A DNA stretch of 64,000 bases, taken from NCBI GenBank assembly GCA_020073605.1, contig JAIQEW010000004.1, positions 62,001 to 126,000 of the forward strand, in the 5' to 3' direction. Shown piece after piece: positions 10,632 to 24,957 of the stretch (its first letter is position 1; the number at the start of each line of letters is the position of its first letter). This DNA comes from Terriglobia bacterium (lineage in GTDB: Bacteria > Acidobacteriota > Terriglobia > Acidiferrales > UBA7541). Under the pieces are notes generated by a model that was not told the origin of the DNA, made no database searches, and saw only the letters and a list, made by a program, of their open reading frames with translations. The position numbers and the translations under genes were made by a program.

Positions 10632-10708
10632 CGGGGCGTAGCGCAGCCTGGTAGCGCGCCTGCCTTGGGCGCAGGAGGTCTGGAGTTCAAATCTCCACGC
10701 CCCGACCA
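10632..10708 (+). tRNA. tRNA-Pro (anticodon UGG)
   Basis: 77-nt cloverleaf. The acceptor stem is CGGGGCG paired with CGCCCCG, followed by discriminator A and an encoded CCA. The anticodon stem CCTGC/GCAGG holds loop CTTGGGC, giving anticodon TGG (proline). The T arm is GGAG-TTCAAAT-CTCC. All arms are intact, so it should be functional. Confidence 0.96.
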
Positions 10709-14122: not shown

Positions 14123-14200
14123 CGGGGCGTGGCTCAGCCTGGCTAGAGCGCCTGGTTCGGGACCAGGAGGCCGGTGGTTCAAATCCACTCGCCCCGACCA
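14123..14200 (+). tRNA. tRNA-Pro (anticodon CGG)
   Basis: 78-nt tRNA with acceptor CGGGGCG paired to CGCCCCG, discriminator A and encoded CCA. The anticodon stem CCTGG/CCAGG encloses loop TTCGGGA, anticodon CGG (proline). All arms are intact. A degenerate direct repeat of its 3' 49 bases lies 5.1 kb downstream at 19259-19307, the pattern left by integration at a tRNA 3' end or by a segmental duplication. Confidence 0.96.
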
Positions 14201-15161: not shown

Positions 15162-15301
15162 ACAACGTCACGCAGTACGCCTCCGACGCTATCTAACGGT
15201 CGGTGTGGTATCATCCGCCCATTCGCAAACATAATTCGGGAATCAGTCCGACGTGAAAGGGTGGGCATCCGCCGAAAGAAGATGTGAGGAGGTAAAACGT
15301 C

Positions 15302-17080
15302 ATGGATAGGCGAAAGATGTTGGCATTATTGGGAATCAGTCCGGCCCTGGCAGCCAGTGCTCCAGCGTACGCAGGAACGGCTCCCAGAGGCATTGCGGAA
15401 GAGTCTTCCGCCGGCAGCGATGGCTCGATCACGGTCATGAACCCCGCTATCGCCGGAAAGCTGGCGACGCGGGCTCCTCTGGTGCCGCCGCTCACGGACC
15501 TGGACAACAAACTGATCTACATGATCAATCTTTCTTGGGAGGGTCCGGACGCCGCGAACTACTTTTACGGAGCGATGACGGAGTGGCTGCAGAAGCATTA
15601 TTCCGGCGTCAAAACGGTAGTGAAGGTCACGGCGGAGGGCATGTTTGGCAGCGACGCCGCGATCCTCAAGGAAATCACTGCCAACCATGCCGATGCGGTG
15701 ATCGTCGGCGTTGCTGGTTGAAACGGCTGCTGCGCGGCCGTGAGCCGCTGGGCAAAGCAAATCCAGATGCAGTGCAAAATTCCCGCCATTGGCGTCGCCT
15801 CCTCCAATATCGTGCATTACGCCACGGGTTACGATTTCAAGTACAGAAACGGCATGCCGATCCGATACGTTGCGGTGCCGTTTCCTTTCACGGGCCAGCC
15901 ACGCGCTGTCGACGTGGGCTATGTAACCGGCAAGGACATTCTGACGGGCCAGCCGTTGATGACCGCCGTGGCTGGCGCACTCACTGCTCCTCTAACGGCC
16001 GAGGAAAAAATATCGGGACCGCCGCCCGGCGCGGAGGCCGAGCCCAGGTTCCTCCCGGCCAGCTCCGAGGAGAACCTGCGGCAGTTGTTTGAGGACAAGG
16101 GATGGACCGATTTCAACTCGATCGTCCTGCCCACCGAAAAGCGTGTCACCGCCATGCTCAAGGGCACCAGCCACAAGCCCGATGAAGTGATCAGCACCGT
16201 CGACATCACCGGCGGGGCGCGGCAGCTCACTGTCGAGAAAGTGGCCATTGGCGCCGTAATGGCCGGGGCCTCGCCGGAGCACTTTCCGGTGATTCTGGCT
16301 CTTGCGACGCAAGCGCCCTTTGGCAACTCCACCAGCTCGATGGCGAACATGATCGTGATCAGTGGCCCGATCCGCAAACGGCTCAACTTCAATTCCGGGA
16401 CCAATGCCCTGGGTCCGTACAATCGGTCGAATGCCGTCGTCGGCCGCGCCTTCACGCTGATTTCCAAGACGGTGGGCGATCTCCGCAACAACGTCAATGC
16501 TTGGGAAAGCTTGGGCAGTAATTTCCAATACAACAATCTCTGCTTTGGCGAAAACGAAGAGGGTCTGCCGGAGGGCTGGGAGCCCCTGCACGTTCAAATG
16601 GGCTTCAAGCCCACTGACAACGTCGTCACGGTCGGGACAGGCTGGAGCAGCATATCGAGCGTCGGGGGCAGCCAGAGTCTCTATCCAACCCATTTCCTGA
16701 TGCGCGACTACATGCGCTCGCTTTCCGCATCGGGCTCGTCTGCCACCATCATGCTGGACCCAACCGTAGCGGCTCTGCTCAAAGACACACATGGATTCAA
16801 GACCAAAGCCCAATTGAGCGAATGGTTCTCGCAAAACGTGGAGAAGACGGCCGCATCTTATTGGGGAAACGGCGTCATTCAAAGCACGGCTGTGCCGTTT
16901 GCGTTGCAGGGCCTTGAACCTTACGCAAGCTGGAGAAAGCTTCCGGATGACGCCCTGATCAAGCCATTTACGAACTCCAGGGCTATCCACGTGGTCGTAA
17001 CGGGCGGAAAGATCCAGACCACGTGGTTCGTCACGGATTTCGGCATGCGGCGTGGCATATCGATCGACGCATGGATGTAG
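15302..17080 (+). CDS. UGSC-family probable selenoprotein, TGA read as selenocysteine at codon 140
   Basis: One 592-residue frame interrupted only by an in-frame TGA at 15719-15721. The sequence before the TGA (ADAVIVGVAG) and after it (NGCCAAVSRWAK) matches the UGSC selenoprotein family, whose motif is U-x-x-C after a GVG/GVA strand. Read through, the site is U140-N-G-C143-C144. AGGAGGT lies eight bases before the ATG. The N-terminus has a DRRKMLALLG Tat-like or lipoprotein-like signal ending near AYAG, so export is likely. Residues ~30-250 are the UGSC domain; ~270-592 form a second conserved-looking domain of unknown role. A hairpin fitting bacterial SECIS rules follows the TGA. A thiol/selenol redox role is inferred. 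A periplasmic rhodanese follows. A nonsense mutation is the alternative, but more than 450 intact codons follow. Confidence 0.85.
15719..15753 (+). promoter_or_regulatory. Putative bacterial SECIS element
   Basis: UGA at 15719-15721 is followed by a stem GCGGC/GCCGC (15734-15738 with 15744-15748) and apical loop CGUGA. A lower helix can form from 15729-15731 with 15751-15753. The apical loop begins 17 nt after the UGA and has G at its second position, both within published bacterial SECIS rules (loop 16-37 nt from UGA; G among the first two loop bases). Such GC-rich hairpins also arise by chance. Confidence 0.55.
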
Positions 17081-17145: not shown

Positions 17146-17676
17146 ATGAAGCCGCAATGGTTGGCGCGCTTCCTGGTGGGAGCGCTCGTCCTCATGCCTG
17201 TGGGGCTTTCGTCCCACAGCTTGCCGAATGGCTCGCAACAGAGCTCTCCCCCGGCGAAAACAGGAAACAACGCCTCGGCTTCCACAAAAGACGAGTTGCC
17301 TTTCCCGCAGGTGCCGCGGATCACCGCTGAGCAGGTGATGAGCCTGATGAAGGAAAAGGGGAAAGTCGTGCTCGTGGATACCGACGATGCGATCACCTAC
17401 GAGGCCGAACACATCCAGGGAGCCATCAACATCACCTACGATCCCAGCGTCGCTCTCCGCAGCGCGGACGACATGCTCAATGCCCTTCCGGGCGACAAGA
17501 TGATCGTCTTCTATTGCAATTGTCCCCATGAAGAAGACAGTGCGCCCATGGTCATGGAGATGTGGGAGCTCAATTACGATCGCGCCAACGTCAAGGCCTT
17601 GCAGGGCGGCCTCGCTCGCTGGGAACAGCTCGGCTATCCCTTGGCCGGCACCGATCTGCCAAAGAAAAGTAACTGA
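17146..17676 (+). CDS. Exported rhodanese-like protein
   Basis: 176-residue protein with a signal peptide (FLVGALVLMPVGLSS) and one rhodanese domain. The domain has the usual opening (ITAEQVMSLM...VVLVDTDD) and an active-site loop beginning FYCNCPHEED with C124 and C126; C124 aligns best with the catalytic sulfur carrier. Start 17146 is chosen because GGAGTGG precedes it and the signal peptide then starts normally; GTG 17119 is less likely. Rhodaneses move sulfane sulfur, and some bind selenium. It lies 65 bases after the UGSC selenoprotein gene on the same strand, so a shared periplasmic sulfur/selenium redox role is possible but unproven. Confidence 0.85.
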   Translation: MKPQWLARFLVGALVLMPVGLSSHSLPNGSQQSSPPAKTGNNASASTKDELPFPQVPRITAEQVMSLMKEKGKVVLVDTDDAITYEAEHIQGAINITYDPSVALRSADDMLNALPGDKMIVFYCNCPHEEDSAPMVMEMWELNYDRANVKALQGGLARWEQLGYPLAGTDLPKKSN

Positions 17677-21221: not shown

Positions 21222-21454
21222 GTATGTGCTCCCCTAAATGGAATTGTGACCAACAACGTTACCACAAACTGTGTCGAGAGGTAGCCTTCCAGGCTGCGAG
21301 TCGTCATGGCACGCCCTAAGCGTGCCGGGGCCTCATCACCACGGCCGCCAGTTGATTCTTTTCTTTTCGAGATCAAACGTGTAGAGTGCGTTCACCCAGT
21401 ACCAAGGGAGTCATATCCGAAGTTAGCAATTCATACCGGGGGCAGGAAAAGAGC

Positions 21455-23158
21455 GTGAACACGCCCACCAAAATAGTATTCACCTTGTGCCTGCTGTTCG
21501 GCCCTCAAGCTCTTTTCGCGCAGCAACAGCCAGCGGATCCGATCGTTACGGCCATGCGCCAGGAACTCGACCGCTCCATGCAGGACTTCAAGAAAACTTC
21601 CGTTCCGCCGTATTTTCTCTCCTACGAGCTTACTGACAATCGCGCGATCAACGTGTCTGCTGCTTTCGGGACACTGATTTCGACTTCCGATCGGACAACC
21701 AGAGTCCTTGACGTTGATCTGCGAGTCGGCGATTACAAACTGGACAGTACACATCCGTTGCGCCAGGAGACTTTTTCCGAGCCGCTGCAGGAGCTTGAGG
21801 AGAAGCGAAACATGCCGCTCGACGATGATCCCTTGGCATTGAAAGTGGCTCTCTGGCAAGCCACGGAAGGGCACTACAGAAGGGCGGTTGAGCGGCTGCA
21901 GCAGGTCCAGGCGAATGTGCAGGTTAAAGTCGCGCAGGAGGACCAGTCTCCGGATTTCTCCCACGAGAACCCTCACGTCTATTCGGAACCGATCGCAGGT
22001 TTCTCCGTGGATGAAAAAGCGTGGGAGCAGAGACTGCGCAATTTGACGAACCCCTTTGCGGAGCATAAGGAAATTCTGGACGCCAGCGCGCAGTTGGATG
22101 CTGAAATCGAGACCCGGCGGTATGTGAACAGCGATGGAACCGAACTCAGGATGTCGACTCCTTTCTACCGCCTCATCATCTCGGCCACGGCCAAGGCCGA
22201 CGACGGAATGGAACTGCCGCTGTATCAAACCTATATGTCTTTTCGCCCGGATGGGTTGCCGGATGAGGCCGCTCTCGCGGCCGACGTAAGCAAGATGATC
22301 GACATGCTCTTGGCGCTCACCAAGGCGCCGTTGGCCGAGCCTTATACGGGTCCTGCCATACTCTCTGGCCGCTCGAGCGCGGTCTTCTTTCATGAAATTT
22401 TTGGACATCGTGTCGAGGGCCAACGGCAGAAGAACGAGGACGACGCGCAGACGTTCAAGAGAAAAGTGAATCAGTCGGTGCTCCCCAATTTCCTCTCCGT
22501 CTACTCCGATCCGACGTTGCGGCAACTGAAGCACACGGAGTTGGTCGGGTACTATCCGTTTGACGATGAGGGCGTGCCGGCCCGGCGGGTCACGATTGTG
22601 CAGAACGGAGTTCTGAAGGAGTTCCTGATGTCGCGCGCCCTCATCACCGGCTTTGACCATTCGAACGGACATGGCCGCCGCCAGCAAGGTTTCCCGGTGG
22701 CAGCGCGGCAATCGAATCTGATCGTCGAATCCTCCAAGTCCGTTTCGCGGGGCGAACTCAAGAAGATGCTGATCGAGCAAATCAAGGCTGCGAAGAAGCC
22801 TTACGGACTGTTCTTTGACGATATCGAGGGTGGATTCACGTTTACCCAGCGAGTCGTGCCCAACGCATTCAATGTGCGGCCGACAGTTGTGTATCGCGTC
22901 TATCCGGACGGCCGGGAGGAGCTGGTCCGCGGCGTGGACCTGATCGGAACGCCTCTCACCTCGTTTAGCAAGATCGTCGCCGCGGACGATGACGTGGCGG
23001 TCTTCAACGGTGTTTGCGGAGCTGAATCGGGATGGGTGCCGGTCTCCGCGAGTGCGCCGGGGATGTTGATTTCGCAAATCGAAGTCCAGCGAAAAGAGAA
23101 ATCACAGGAGCGTGCGCCGCTGCTGCCCCCGCCGCCCGCCTCCGCCGGGAACAATTGA
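21455..23158 (+). CDS. Exported TldD-type zinc metallopeptidase
   Basis: 567-residue protein of the TldD/PmbA family (peptidase U62/M103). The zinc motif HEIFGHRVEG matches the family HExxxH. The C-terminus has the family signature (VCGAESGWVPVSASAPGMLIS). GTG 21455 is the chosen start: AGGAAAAG precedes it and the product opens with a signal peptide (IVFTLCLLFGPQALFAQQ). E. coli TldD is cytoplasmic and unfolds and degrades peptides such as microcin precursors and antitoxins together with TldE. Export makes this pair unusual. The catalytic-site-less partner starts three bases after the stop, so the two are probably co-translated. Confidence 0.88.
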   Translation: MNTPTKIVFTLCLLFGPQALFAQQQPADPIVTAMRQELDRSMQDFKKTSVPPYFLSYELTDNRAINVSAAFGTLISTSDRTTRVLDVDLRVGDYKLDSTHPLRQETFSEPLQELEEKRNMPLDDDPLALKVALWQATEGHYRRAVERLQQVQANVQVKVAQEDQSPDFSHENPHVYSEPIAGFSVDEKAWEQRLRNLTNPFAEHKEILDASAQLDAEIETRRYVNSDGTELRMSTPFYRLIISATAKADDGMELPLYQTYMSFRPDGLPDEAALAADVSKMIDMLLALTKAPLAEPYTGPAILSGRSSAVFFHEIFGHRVEGQRQKNEDDAQTFKRKVNQSVLPNFLSVYSDPTLRQLKHTELVGYYPFDDEGVPARRVTIVQNGVLKEFLMSRALITGFDHSNGHGRRQQGFPVAARQSNLIVESSKSVSRGELKKMLIEQIKAAKKPYGLFFDDIEGGFTFTQRVVPNAFNVRPTVVYRVYPDGREELVRGVDLIGTPLTSFSKIVAADDDVAVFNGVCGAESGWVPVSASAPGMLISQIEVQRKEKSQERAPLLPPPPASAGNN

Positions 23159-23160
23159 GC

Positions 23161-24957
23161 ATGGTTTTCAGAGGGACAACTGTGCGCTCGAAATGGGTCT
23201 TCGTGGCCTGGGCAATCCTTGCCGCACCACTCTTGCAGGCCCAACGCCAGGAAGATGTGATCATGCGCGCGATGAAGGATGAGTTGGCTCGCTCCATGAG
23301 CCAGTTGCAGCTTCCGCAGATGGAGAAGCCATATTTTCTTGCGTACCGCGTGCAGGACATCACGCAACACGAGATATCCGCGACGCTGGGGAGCCTGACT
23401 TCCAGCAGCGGACCTCCCGTTCGTAGTCGGCTGATCGGCGTGGAACTTCGGGTCGGCGACTACAGCCTCGACAACACCAACTTCTTCTCCATGCGCAGTT
23501 TTTCCGGCGGAGCCATGTTCGGTGGCATTGAGCAAGGCTCTCTGGACGACAACTATGCGCAGATCCGGCGTGAATTTTGGCTCACGACGGACAAAGAATA
23601 CAAACAGGCGCTGGAGAATCTGTCCGCGAAGAGAGCGGCGCTAAAGGGGCGAGGTGGCAACGAGAATATTCCCGACTTCAGTAAAGAAACGCCCGTCACG
23701 GTAAACGAACCTTCCGCCGCAGTCGTTACACCTAATCTCGGCGAGCTCGAATCGACCGCGCGAGACCTTTCAACCGTCTTCCGATCTGCTCCGGAAATCG
23801 ACAGGTCCTCCGTCGCGATTCGATATAGCGACGTCTATACGCGATACGTGAACAGTGAGGGCACGTCGTTTACCCGCTCCGAGCCGCTGATCAAGCTGGA
23901 AGTGACCGCGCAGACGCAGGCGGCGGACGGCTTGCCGATCTCGGATTCGTTTGAGGTCTATGTCCGTAACCCCGCGGAGATGCCTTCCAGAGACGCGTTG
24001 CGCGCGCGCGTCCAACAAATGTCTGCGTCGATCGTGAAACTTCGCTCGGCGTCTTCGCTCGATCGCTACAACGGCCCAGTCTTGTTCGAGGGAGCAGCCG
24101 CGGGCGAGATTTTCCTTCAGCAATTTGGCTCGCGGCTGGCCACGGCGCGAACTCCGGCGAGCGATAACCCGCAATTCGAGATGGTGTTCGATCAGATGTT
24201 GGATCGCCTTGGCGGTCCTCCGCTGCAGGACAAAGTCGGCGCGCGTATCCTCCCGAGCTTCATCTCGGTGCGGGATAATCCCTCGCAAGCCACCTTCAAC
24301 GGGGTCGCTTTGCTTGGGAGTTCGCCCGTGGACGATGACGGCGTCAAGACGCGGGAAACGGTCCTTGTAGATCGCGGCGTTCTCAAGAACCTACTTGCAT
24401 CGCGAGTCCCGGTTCGCGGCATCCTGCAGAGCACCGGGAGCCGCCGCGGCTGGGGGGCTCTCCCCAGCAACATCTTTGTCACTTCCGAGAAGACGATGCC
24501 AGCCGATGAACTGAGAAAAGAGTTGCTACGCCTCGCAAAGGAAAGAGGACTGGACTACGCCCTTGTGGTTCGAAGGGTCGGAGCGGGATCCCAGGAGTCT
24601 CTCCTTGAGATGGCCAGACAGATGGCGTCCGCGCAGAATAACTCTCAATCTATTCCGGAAGTGTACAAGCTCTATTCTGACGGACATGAGGAGCCTCTCA
24701 GGGGTGTGCGCATTTCAGACTTGCCTGCGGAGTCGTTCAAGGAGATCGTCGCGACGGGAGGCAGTCCGGTGCTCTATAGTGACGAACTCATGCCGCGTTT
24801 GAATTCCCTGTTGTCCATGGGGCTTTCTTCCGGAGGCAACTTGCCGGTGGTTTCCTGCGTAAGCCCCGCACTGCTCTTTGAAGAAGTTTCCTTCGCGAAA
24901 AGCGAAGGCCCGTTTCCACCGACGCCCGTATCGCCCTCACCGCTTGCGCAAAAATGA
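23161..24957 (+). CDS. Exported TldE/PmbA-like partner lacking the zinc motif
   Basis: 598-residue paralogue of the preceding gene with its own signal peptide (WVFVAWAILAAPLLQAQ). Where TldD has HEIFGH, this protein reads GEIFLQQFGSRL, with no HExxxH. This is the situation in TldE/PmbA, which supports TldD in a heterodimer. ATG 23161 starts just after the upstream stop; GTG 23182 is an alternative. The C-terminus is extended and divergent. The adjacent order, matched length and loss of ligands fit a dedicated periplasmic TldD/TldE complex. Substrates are unknown. Confidence 0.85.
   Translation: MVFRGTTVRSKWVFVAWAILAAPLLQAQRQEDVIMRAMKDELARSMSQLQLPQMEKPYFLAYRVQDITQHEISATLGSLTSSSGPPVRSRLIGVELRVGDYSLDNTNFFSMRSFSGGAMFGGIEQGSLDDNYAQIRREFWLTTDKEYKQALENLSAKRAALKGRGGNENIPDFSKETPVTVNEPSAAVVTPNLGELESTARDLSTVFRSAPEIDRSSVAIRYSDVYTRYVNSEGTSFTRSEPLIKLEVTAQTQAADGLPISDSFEVYVRNPAEMPSRDALRARVQQMSASIVKLRSASSLDRYNGPVLFEGAAAGEIFLQQFGSRLATARTPASDNPQFEMVFDQMLDRLGGPPLQDKVGARILPSFISVRDNPSQATFNGVALLGSSPVDDDGVKTRETVLVDRGVLKNLLASRVPVRGILQSTGSRRGWGALPSNIFVTSEKTMPADELRKELLRLAKERGLDYALVVRRVGAGSQESLLEMARQMASAQNNSQSIPEVYKLYSDGHEEPLRGVRISDLPAESFKEIVATGGSPVLYSDELMPRLNSLLSMGLSSGGNLPVVSCVSPALLFEEVSFAKSEGPFPPTPVSPSPLAQK

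Follow-up and report, generated by a model that had tools for sequence, protein, structure and literature searches.

Does the in-frame TGA at codon 140 of the reading frame at 15302-17080 end a gene, mark a damaged one or encode selenocysteine (Sec), and what kind of protein would extend across it? The window analysed here, a stretch of 64,000 nucleotides from a Terriglobia bacterium of the Acidobacteriota, belongs to a draft assembly of 3.66 Mb in 30 contigs that is 94% complete. MAGs of the Acidobacteriota, several of them labelled Candidatus Acidiferrales, are its nearest named relatives. On the forward strand of the window, the frame consists of 592 codons followed by a TAG stop (17078-17080), and the TGA is its sole interruption. 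The features that we assign to the gene and its immediate surroundings are as follows.

15286-15292 (+): Shine-Dalgarno-like GAGGAGG, read directly from the sequence, 9 nt upstream of the ATG
15302-17080 (+): predicted two-domain UGSC-superfamily selenoprotein gene, 592 codons and TAG, with TGA codon 140 as Sec
15302-15373 (+): Tat-like signal peptide (MDRRKMLALLGISPALAASAPAYA, with AxA ahead of the likely cleavage site), based on a motif of the paralogues; the cleavage site is a prediction
15434-16012 (+): UGSC domain, residues 45-237, based on a PF24696 match to residues 48-199, an AF2 model and fold comparison
15719-15721 (+): UGA codon for Sec140, TGA in 52/52 extracted homologues
15728-15730 (+): Cys143, the putative partner of Sec140 in a UxxC motif, Cys in 52/52 homologues
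15734-15748 (+): proposed bacterial SECIS apical hairpin GCGGC-CGUGA-GCCGC, loop from 17 nt past the UGA, based on comparison
16058-17077 (+): C-terminal domain, about residues 253-592, with no Pfam or NCBIfam family and no PDB relative by sequence
17146-17676 (+): gene for a secreted rhodanese-domain protein with a YCNCPHEEDSA motif, directly downstream (Pfam Rhodanese, 50.7 bits)

The first-pass annotation had read the two open stretches on either side of the TGA as a single frame with more than 450 intact codons after it. Translation of 15302-17080 agrees: 452 codons follow the TGA, and the residues around codon 140 in the read-through product are VIVGVAG-U-NGCCAAV. At 60% GC, the probability that 452 codons would stay open by chance is about 4e-7. 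Third-position GC is 0.75 after the TGA as compared with 0.71 before it, and in comparison with five homologues the part after the TGA differs mostly in third codon positions and is better conserved than the part before it. Given this coding composition, the third-position changes and the tiny chance of openness, we consider the frame to be one gene and not two chance ORFs. Judging from these comparisons, the 452 codons 3' of the TGA are under purifying selection.

TGA occupies this codon in 52 of 52 extracted family genes, and Cys follows three residues later in every one. These genes come from the window genome and its relatives, from a second family of the Acidobacteriota and from one MAG labelled Deltaproteobacteria; the extraction required a U-x-x-C motif, which biases the set toward invariance of both TGA and Cys. 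An independent homology search that made no use of the motif found one TGA in every full-length match. In the window genome itself the gene is present ten times, in every case with a single in-frame TGA, and the other nine copies are 31-53% identical to the copy in the window. Among the extracted homologues, no Sec-type member has Trp, Arg or any other sense codon at the site, and no stop other than TGA occurs there in the 52. A nonsense mutation or a sequencing error at a codon that was formerly sense would leave a single in-frame stop like this one, and the source is a draft assembly of 30 contigs. However, homologues from several genomes and each of the ten paralogues have TGA at the same codon, and neither the strong purifying selection after the TGA nor the full Sec machinery of the genome fits with such an accident. 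We consider this explanation extremely improbable, and the first-pass view that decay was unlikely holds.

The window genome encodes SelB (369 bits), SelA (562 bits) and SelD (370 bits), all above curated cut-offs, as well as a tRNA-Sec with the anticodon TCA (UCA), such that the search proposed earlier for selA, selB, selC and selD recovered all four. Across 297 Acidobacteriota genomes, SelA is present in all 31 that have TGA-bearing UGSC genes as compared with 191 overall, a contrast that is inflated by relatedness. The combination that was expected to speak against Sec, a missing machinery together with Trp, Arg or a stop in homologues, is the opposite of what was found, given that the machinery is present and TGA is invariant in Sec-type members. 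Read-through in itself fits any decoding, and Trp or Cys could be inserted by a near-cognate tRNA or under a reassigned code. However, TGA serves as a normal stop in the window, where it terminates 17 of 33 mechanically chosen long ORFs, and thus it is not reassigned. The dedicated tRNA-Sec and SelB, the UxxC context and a bacterial SECIS-type hairpin also argue against insertion of another amino acid, to which we give very little credence. With TGA and the following Cys conserved and a complete Sec machinery in the same genome, the hidden selenoprotein suggested at first pass is supported by comparison, and residue 140 is almost certainly selenocysteine.

Bacterial SECIS elements are described as having an apical loop 16-37 nt past the UGA, a G within the first two loop positions and a stem of 4-16 bp (PMC13188914). 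The window hairpin, with a 5 bp stem and a CGUGA loop that starts 17 nt past the UGA, falls within these limits, and an equivalent hairpin occurs in 52/52 homologues, where the loop starts 16-21 nt past the UGA. The hairpins average -7.2 kcal/mol, whereas 468 control windows taken from these genes average -1.6, and synonymous shuffling gives a median P of 0.16 at the UGA and 1.0 in the controls (Mann-Whitney 1e-24, with relatedness not corrected). The window hairpin (-9.7 kcal/mol in the scored form) and 44% of the homologue set lie at or below the energy threshold of -7.5 kcal/mol. By codon homozygosity, codons +2, +6, +7 and +8 all rank in the top 9 of 173 comparable columns for fixed codon choice. 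When one register is used, all 33 unique sequences have standard pairs at the three inner stem positions, the outer pairs are less consistent, and two-sided changes are seen at single stem pairs (G-C to A-U and G-C to C-G). Folding of the whole region (48 nt from the UGA) against synonymous shuffles gives a weak signal, with a mean z of -0.53 as compared with -0.10 in controls, and in the free window RNA the minimum free energy structure is a competing hairpin closer to the UGA (z only -0.96). Given that the whole-region energy is unremarkable and that the competing hairpin is the preferred structure of the free RNA, we base the SECIS proposal on the apical hairpin; we assume that a decoding ribosome would melt the competitor. 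Comparison among homologues marks the hairpin just 3' of the UGA as the putative element that directs Sec insertion.

The protein had been placed in the UGSC family, and the read-through product scores 28.5 bits over residues 48-199 against the Pfam UGSC model PF24696 (curated cut-off 25), with paralogues reaching 110 bits. The Sec site and the Cys three residues on are also supported. In place of the literal U-G-S-C tetrapeptide the window protein has U-N-G-C, and U-G-S-C is present in a paralogue of the same genome (L017, G000:C22). With the NCBIfam equivalog UGSC_fam (NF041046) the window protein obtains 28 bits, under the cut-off of 125, and the separate UGSC gene of locus L091 obtains 153.6 bits. 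Based on the UNGC motif and the low NF041046 score, we assign the window protein to a divergent two-domain UGSC branch. It has in common with the PF24696/NF041046 family the homologous region and a UxxC after the third strand with Sec at the same place, whereas UNGC, the signal peptide, the fused C-terminal domain and the large paralogue sets set it apart.

An AF2 model of residues 45-237 (pLDDT 83, pTM 0.84) predicts a three-layer alpha/beta, Rossmann-like domain in which Sec140 sits between strand 3 and the next helix. Foldseek and VIA matched this domain to generic alpha/beta folds, with receiver, B12-binding and GTPase domains in the best rows. A thioredoxin-like fold was proposed for UGSC in an earlier report (PMC2398784); thioredoxin folds are absent among the matches listed by Foldseek and VIA for the domain model, although such matches may lie beyond the listed rows. 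Neither the UGSC part nor the C-domain part had a relative in profile searches of PDB sequences, and no relative was found in viral contigs.

The location of Sec140 within the fold is relevant to a further alternative, that translation really ends at the TGA and a second, translationally coupled protein starts at GTG 15740. This GTG lies 18 nt past the TGA, and both domains exist as separate genes elsewhere. However, a stop here would cut the UGSC domain itself at the strand 3/helix junction instead of separating the two domains at their border near residue 240, it would deprive the protein of Cys143 and the motif, and TGA is the only stop seen at the site. Coupled half-proteins are therefore highly unlikely in our view. 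We regard the selenoprotein and two-domain reading of 15302-17080, leaving aside any role in a pathway, as very probable. The glycine and proline reductase selenoproteins GrdB and PrdB also have a U-x-x-C motif and depend on partners. Their likeness to the window protein, a U-x-x-C motif in a partner-dependent selenoprotein, is a resemblance only, and no sequence match to the window protein was found in Pfam or NCBIfam.

Homologues of the fused type with Cys at the Sec position, which customarily serve as a second line of evidence for Sec, were not found. In TGA-less paralogues most or all of the motif is gone, and most of the TGA-less members examined have neither Sec nor Cys in it; one has Leu (CTG) at the Sec position and retains the Cys at +3. 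The UGSC-fusion paralogues thus illustrate the loss of Sec without replacement by Cys. Tandem fusion paralogues that lack both residues in the motif occur at L104 (G037:C67), L113 (G274:C58) and L105 (G113:C100), and the redox function of these proteins may have been lost or changed.

The added C-terminal domain noticed at first pass is real, common to the paralogues and about 340 residues long. Multidomain membership is not new in itself, given that a 2008 report described a UGSC/Unknown_1 fusion in Global Ocean Sampling data (PMC2398784, Figure S1A). That fusion is like the window gene in that it combines a UGSC domain with an uncharacterised domain, and Unknown_1 may well be the same C-terminal domain. 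The C-terminal 340 or so residues of the window protein had no match among Pfam models, NCBIfam models or PDB sequences, and in a full-length AF2 model based on seven sequences the C-domain is poor (pLDDT about 20-45 past residue 400).

In other Acidobacteriota the C-domain occurs without a fused UGSC domain, and a separate UGSC gene with a TGA is present in almost the same set of genomes. The two genes are adjacent or close in L091 and L106-L112. Such two-gene systems have the same two domains as the window gene, but they are unfused, have no signal peptide that we noticed, have other neighbours and in several cases include a redoxin. This redoxin is at the N-terminus of the C-domain protein in L108, L109, L111 and one L091 gene, and the C-domain proteins of L110 and L112 have an unmatched N-terminus with a DCPTC motif. 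Outside the redoxin part, in which the strong PDB matches fall, the separate C-domain proteins had no Pfam, NCBIfam or PDB match. The fusion in one lineage, the adjacency in another and the exchange with a thiol-redox domain all indicate that UGSC and the C-domain act jointly in a redox step. The C-domain proteins of L091 and L106 have tails that end in CTDGTCEL and CEDGTCSL, whose paired cysteines bring flexible redox tails to mind. A second Sec site in the C-domain was also considered and rejected, because the in-frame TGAs of C-domain-only frames fall at or beyond the protein ends and not inside the domain.

The motif (D/N)RRKxLxLLGxSPALxA is found at the start of eight of the ten copies in the window genome, in agreement with the Tat-like signal recognised at first pass, and a ninth copy has a Sec-type signal. 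Based on its Tat-like signal, the window protein is predicted to be exported to the cell envelope.

In a second Acidobacteriota family (f29) these fused genes are also abundant, with 6 to at least 18 Sec-coding members per genome (at least 18 in both G122 and G113, at least 16 in G274 and at least 15 in G258). A survey that covered more than 5,200 bacterial genomes gave 26 and 33 for UGSC, apparently organisms and genes (PMC5029168). Because standard annotation would split each gene at the TGA, the abundance of UGSC fusions in soil bacteria is easily overlooked. We rejected the idea of a record-size selenoproteome, given that 46 selenoprotein genes are reported in Desulfosediminicola flagellatus (PMC12013277); the counts given here are for the UGSC-fusion family alone. 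At L018 (G000:C21:465000-480000) and L119, three tandem UGSC-fusion selenoprotein genes with a GHUSTC motif lie by PQQ dehydrogenase and cytochrome c genes.

No function is given for UGSC in the literature surveyed, and the neighbouring genes, which encode quinone-dependent dehydrogenases, cytochromes and a sulfur-transfer enzyme, may provide the first clue. As at the window locus, a secreted rhodanese is encoded directly downstream of the homologues in L022, L024, L025 and L027; in L023 the rhodanese is the terminal part of a PQQ dehydrogenase-cupredoxin fusion, and one further locus of the window genome also carries a rhodanese. In L025, from the MAG labelled Deltaproteobacteria, the rhodanese gene beside the UGSC fusion (2235-2684, +) has an in-frame TGA of its own, with YCSU-ASDSESAG as compared with YCNC in relatives, followed by a hairpin with the loop GGUCU. 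This rhodanese is probably a second selenoprotein in the same gene pair. In the window genome, 4 of the 8 loci (6 of 10 copies) have a PQQ dehydrogenase no more than 3 kb away; with some 26 PQQ-domain genes spread over 3.66 Mb, about 0.5 such loci would be expected, and a simple binomial gives a P of about 0.001. A PQQ dehydrogenase also lies downstream of orthologues in L020 and L021. Cytochrome c genes recur at the window-genome loci, two of them recognised by Pfam and a third by similarity. The window gene has the rhodanese and no PQQ dehydrogenase beside it, and three other loci also have none within 3 kb.

In the mechanism that we propose, UGA140 would be decoded as Sec by the SelA, SelB, SelD and tRNA-Sec of the same cell, guided by the downstream hairpin, and the Tat-like signal would send the protein to the cell envelope. 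Sec140 and Cys143, where a helix of the Rossmann-like UGSC domain begins, would together act as a U-x-x-C redox pair. Based on the motif, Sec140 may attack or reduce a substrate and be recycled via a selenenyl-sulfide with Cys143. The C-domain would serve as the constant partner, which elsewhere is encoded by a neighbouring gene and often fused to a thioredoxin-like redoxin. Co-occurrence and fusion point to this partnership, and the CxxC of the redoxin could, in a conjectural electron flow, supply electrons. A thiol-redox role of the UGSC fusion is probable. The paralogues may belong to periplasmic modules for oxidation that also include PQQ dehydrogenases, cytochrome c or cupredoxin, and a rhodanese; the context is observed, and that they have a role within PQQ-linked periplasmic oxidation seems to us an even proposition. 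More doubtful is the specific possibility that UGSC and the C-domain are a selenium-dependent component of periplasmic PQQ oxidation, with one paralogue per dehydrogenase or substrate and a Cys- or Sec-rhodanese as partner. If this were true, it would represent a previously unrecognised class of selenoenzyme, multiplied to 10-18 copies per genome in some soil Acidobacteriota.

Alternatively, the Sec site may be right and the protein an unrelated Sec enzyme (e.g., a nucleophilic dehalogenase, a peroxidase or a protein that handles metals or metalloids) that has PQQ neighbours owing to their abundance in Acidobacteriota. This is a substantial possibility, if somewhat short of an even one. The number of PQQ-domain genes in the genome would favour it, as would the window gene and three other loci that have none nearby, and separate UGSC genes in other genomes are near fatty-acid or CoA-transferase-like genes. 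However, the excess of PQQ dehydrogenases over expectation, the three orthologues in other genomes that share this context and the recurrence of cytochrome c and rhodanese genes argue for the PQQ-linked modules.

In aquatic metagenomes UGSC ranks with the most abundant families of selenoproteins, and UGSC selenoproteins, including the fusion to Unknown_1, are already known (PMC2398784). To judge from the surveyed literature, what is new is that the family has an exported form, has multiplied, is constantly paired with the C-domain and redoxin, and lies in a PQQ/cytochrome/rhodanese context. UGSC thereby gains a constant partner domain, an exported form, a lineage-specific multiplication and a context that points to concrete experiments. 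Elsewhere in the window, two adjacent genes of the PmbA/TldD family are found at 21386-24957, and two tRNA-Pro genes, with TGG and CGG anticodons, lie within 3.5 kb of each other at 10632-10708 and 14123-14200.
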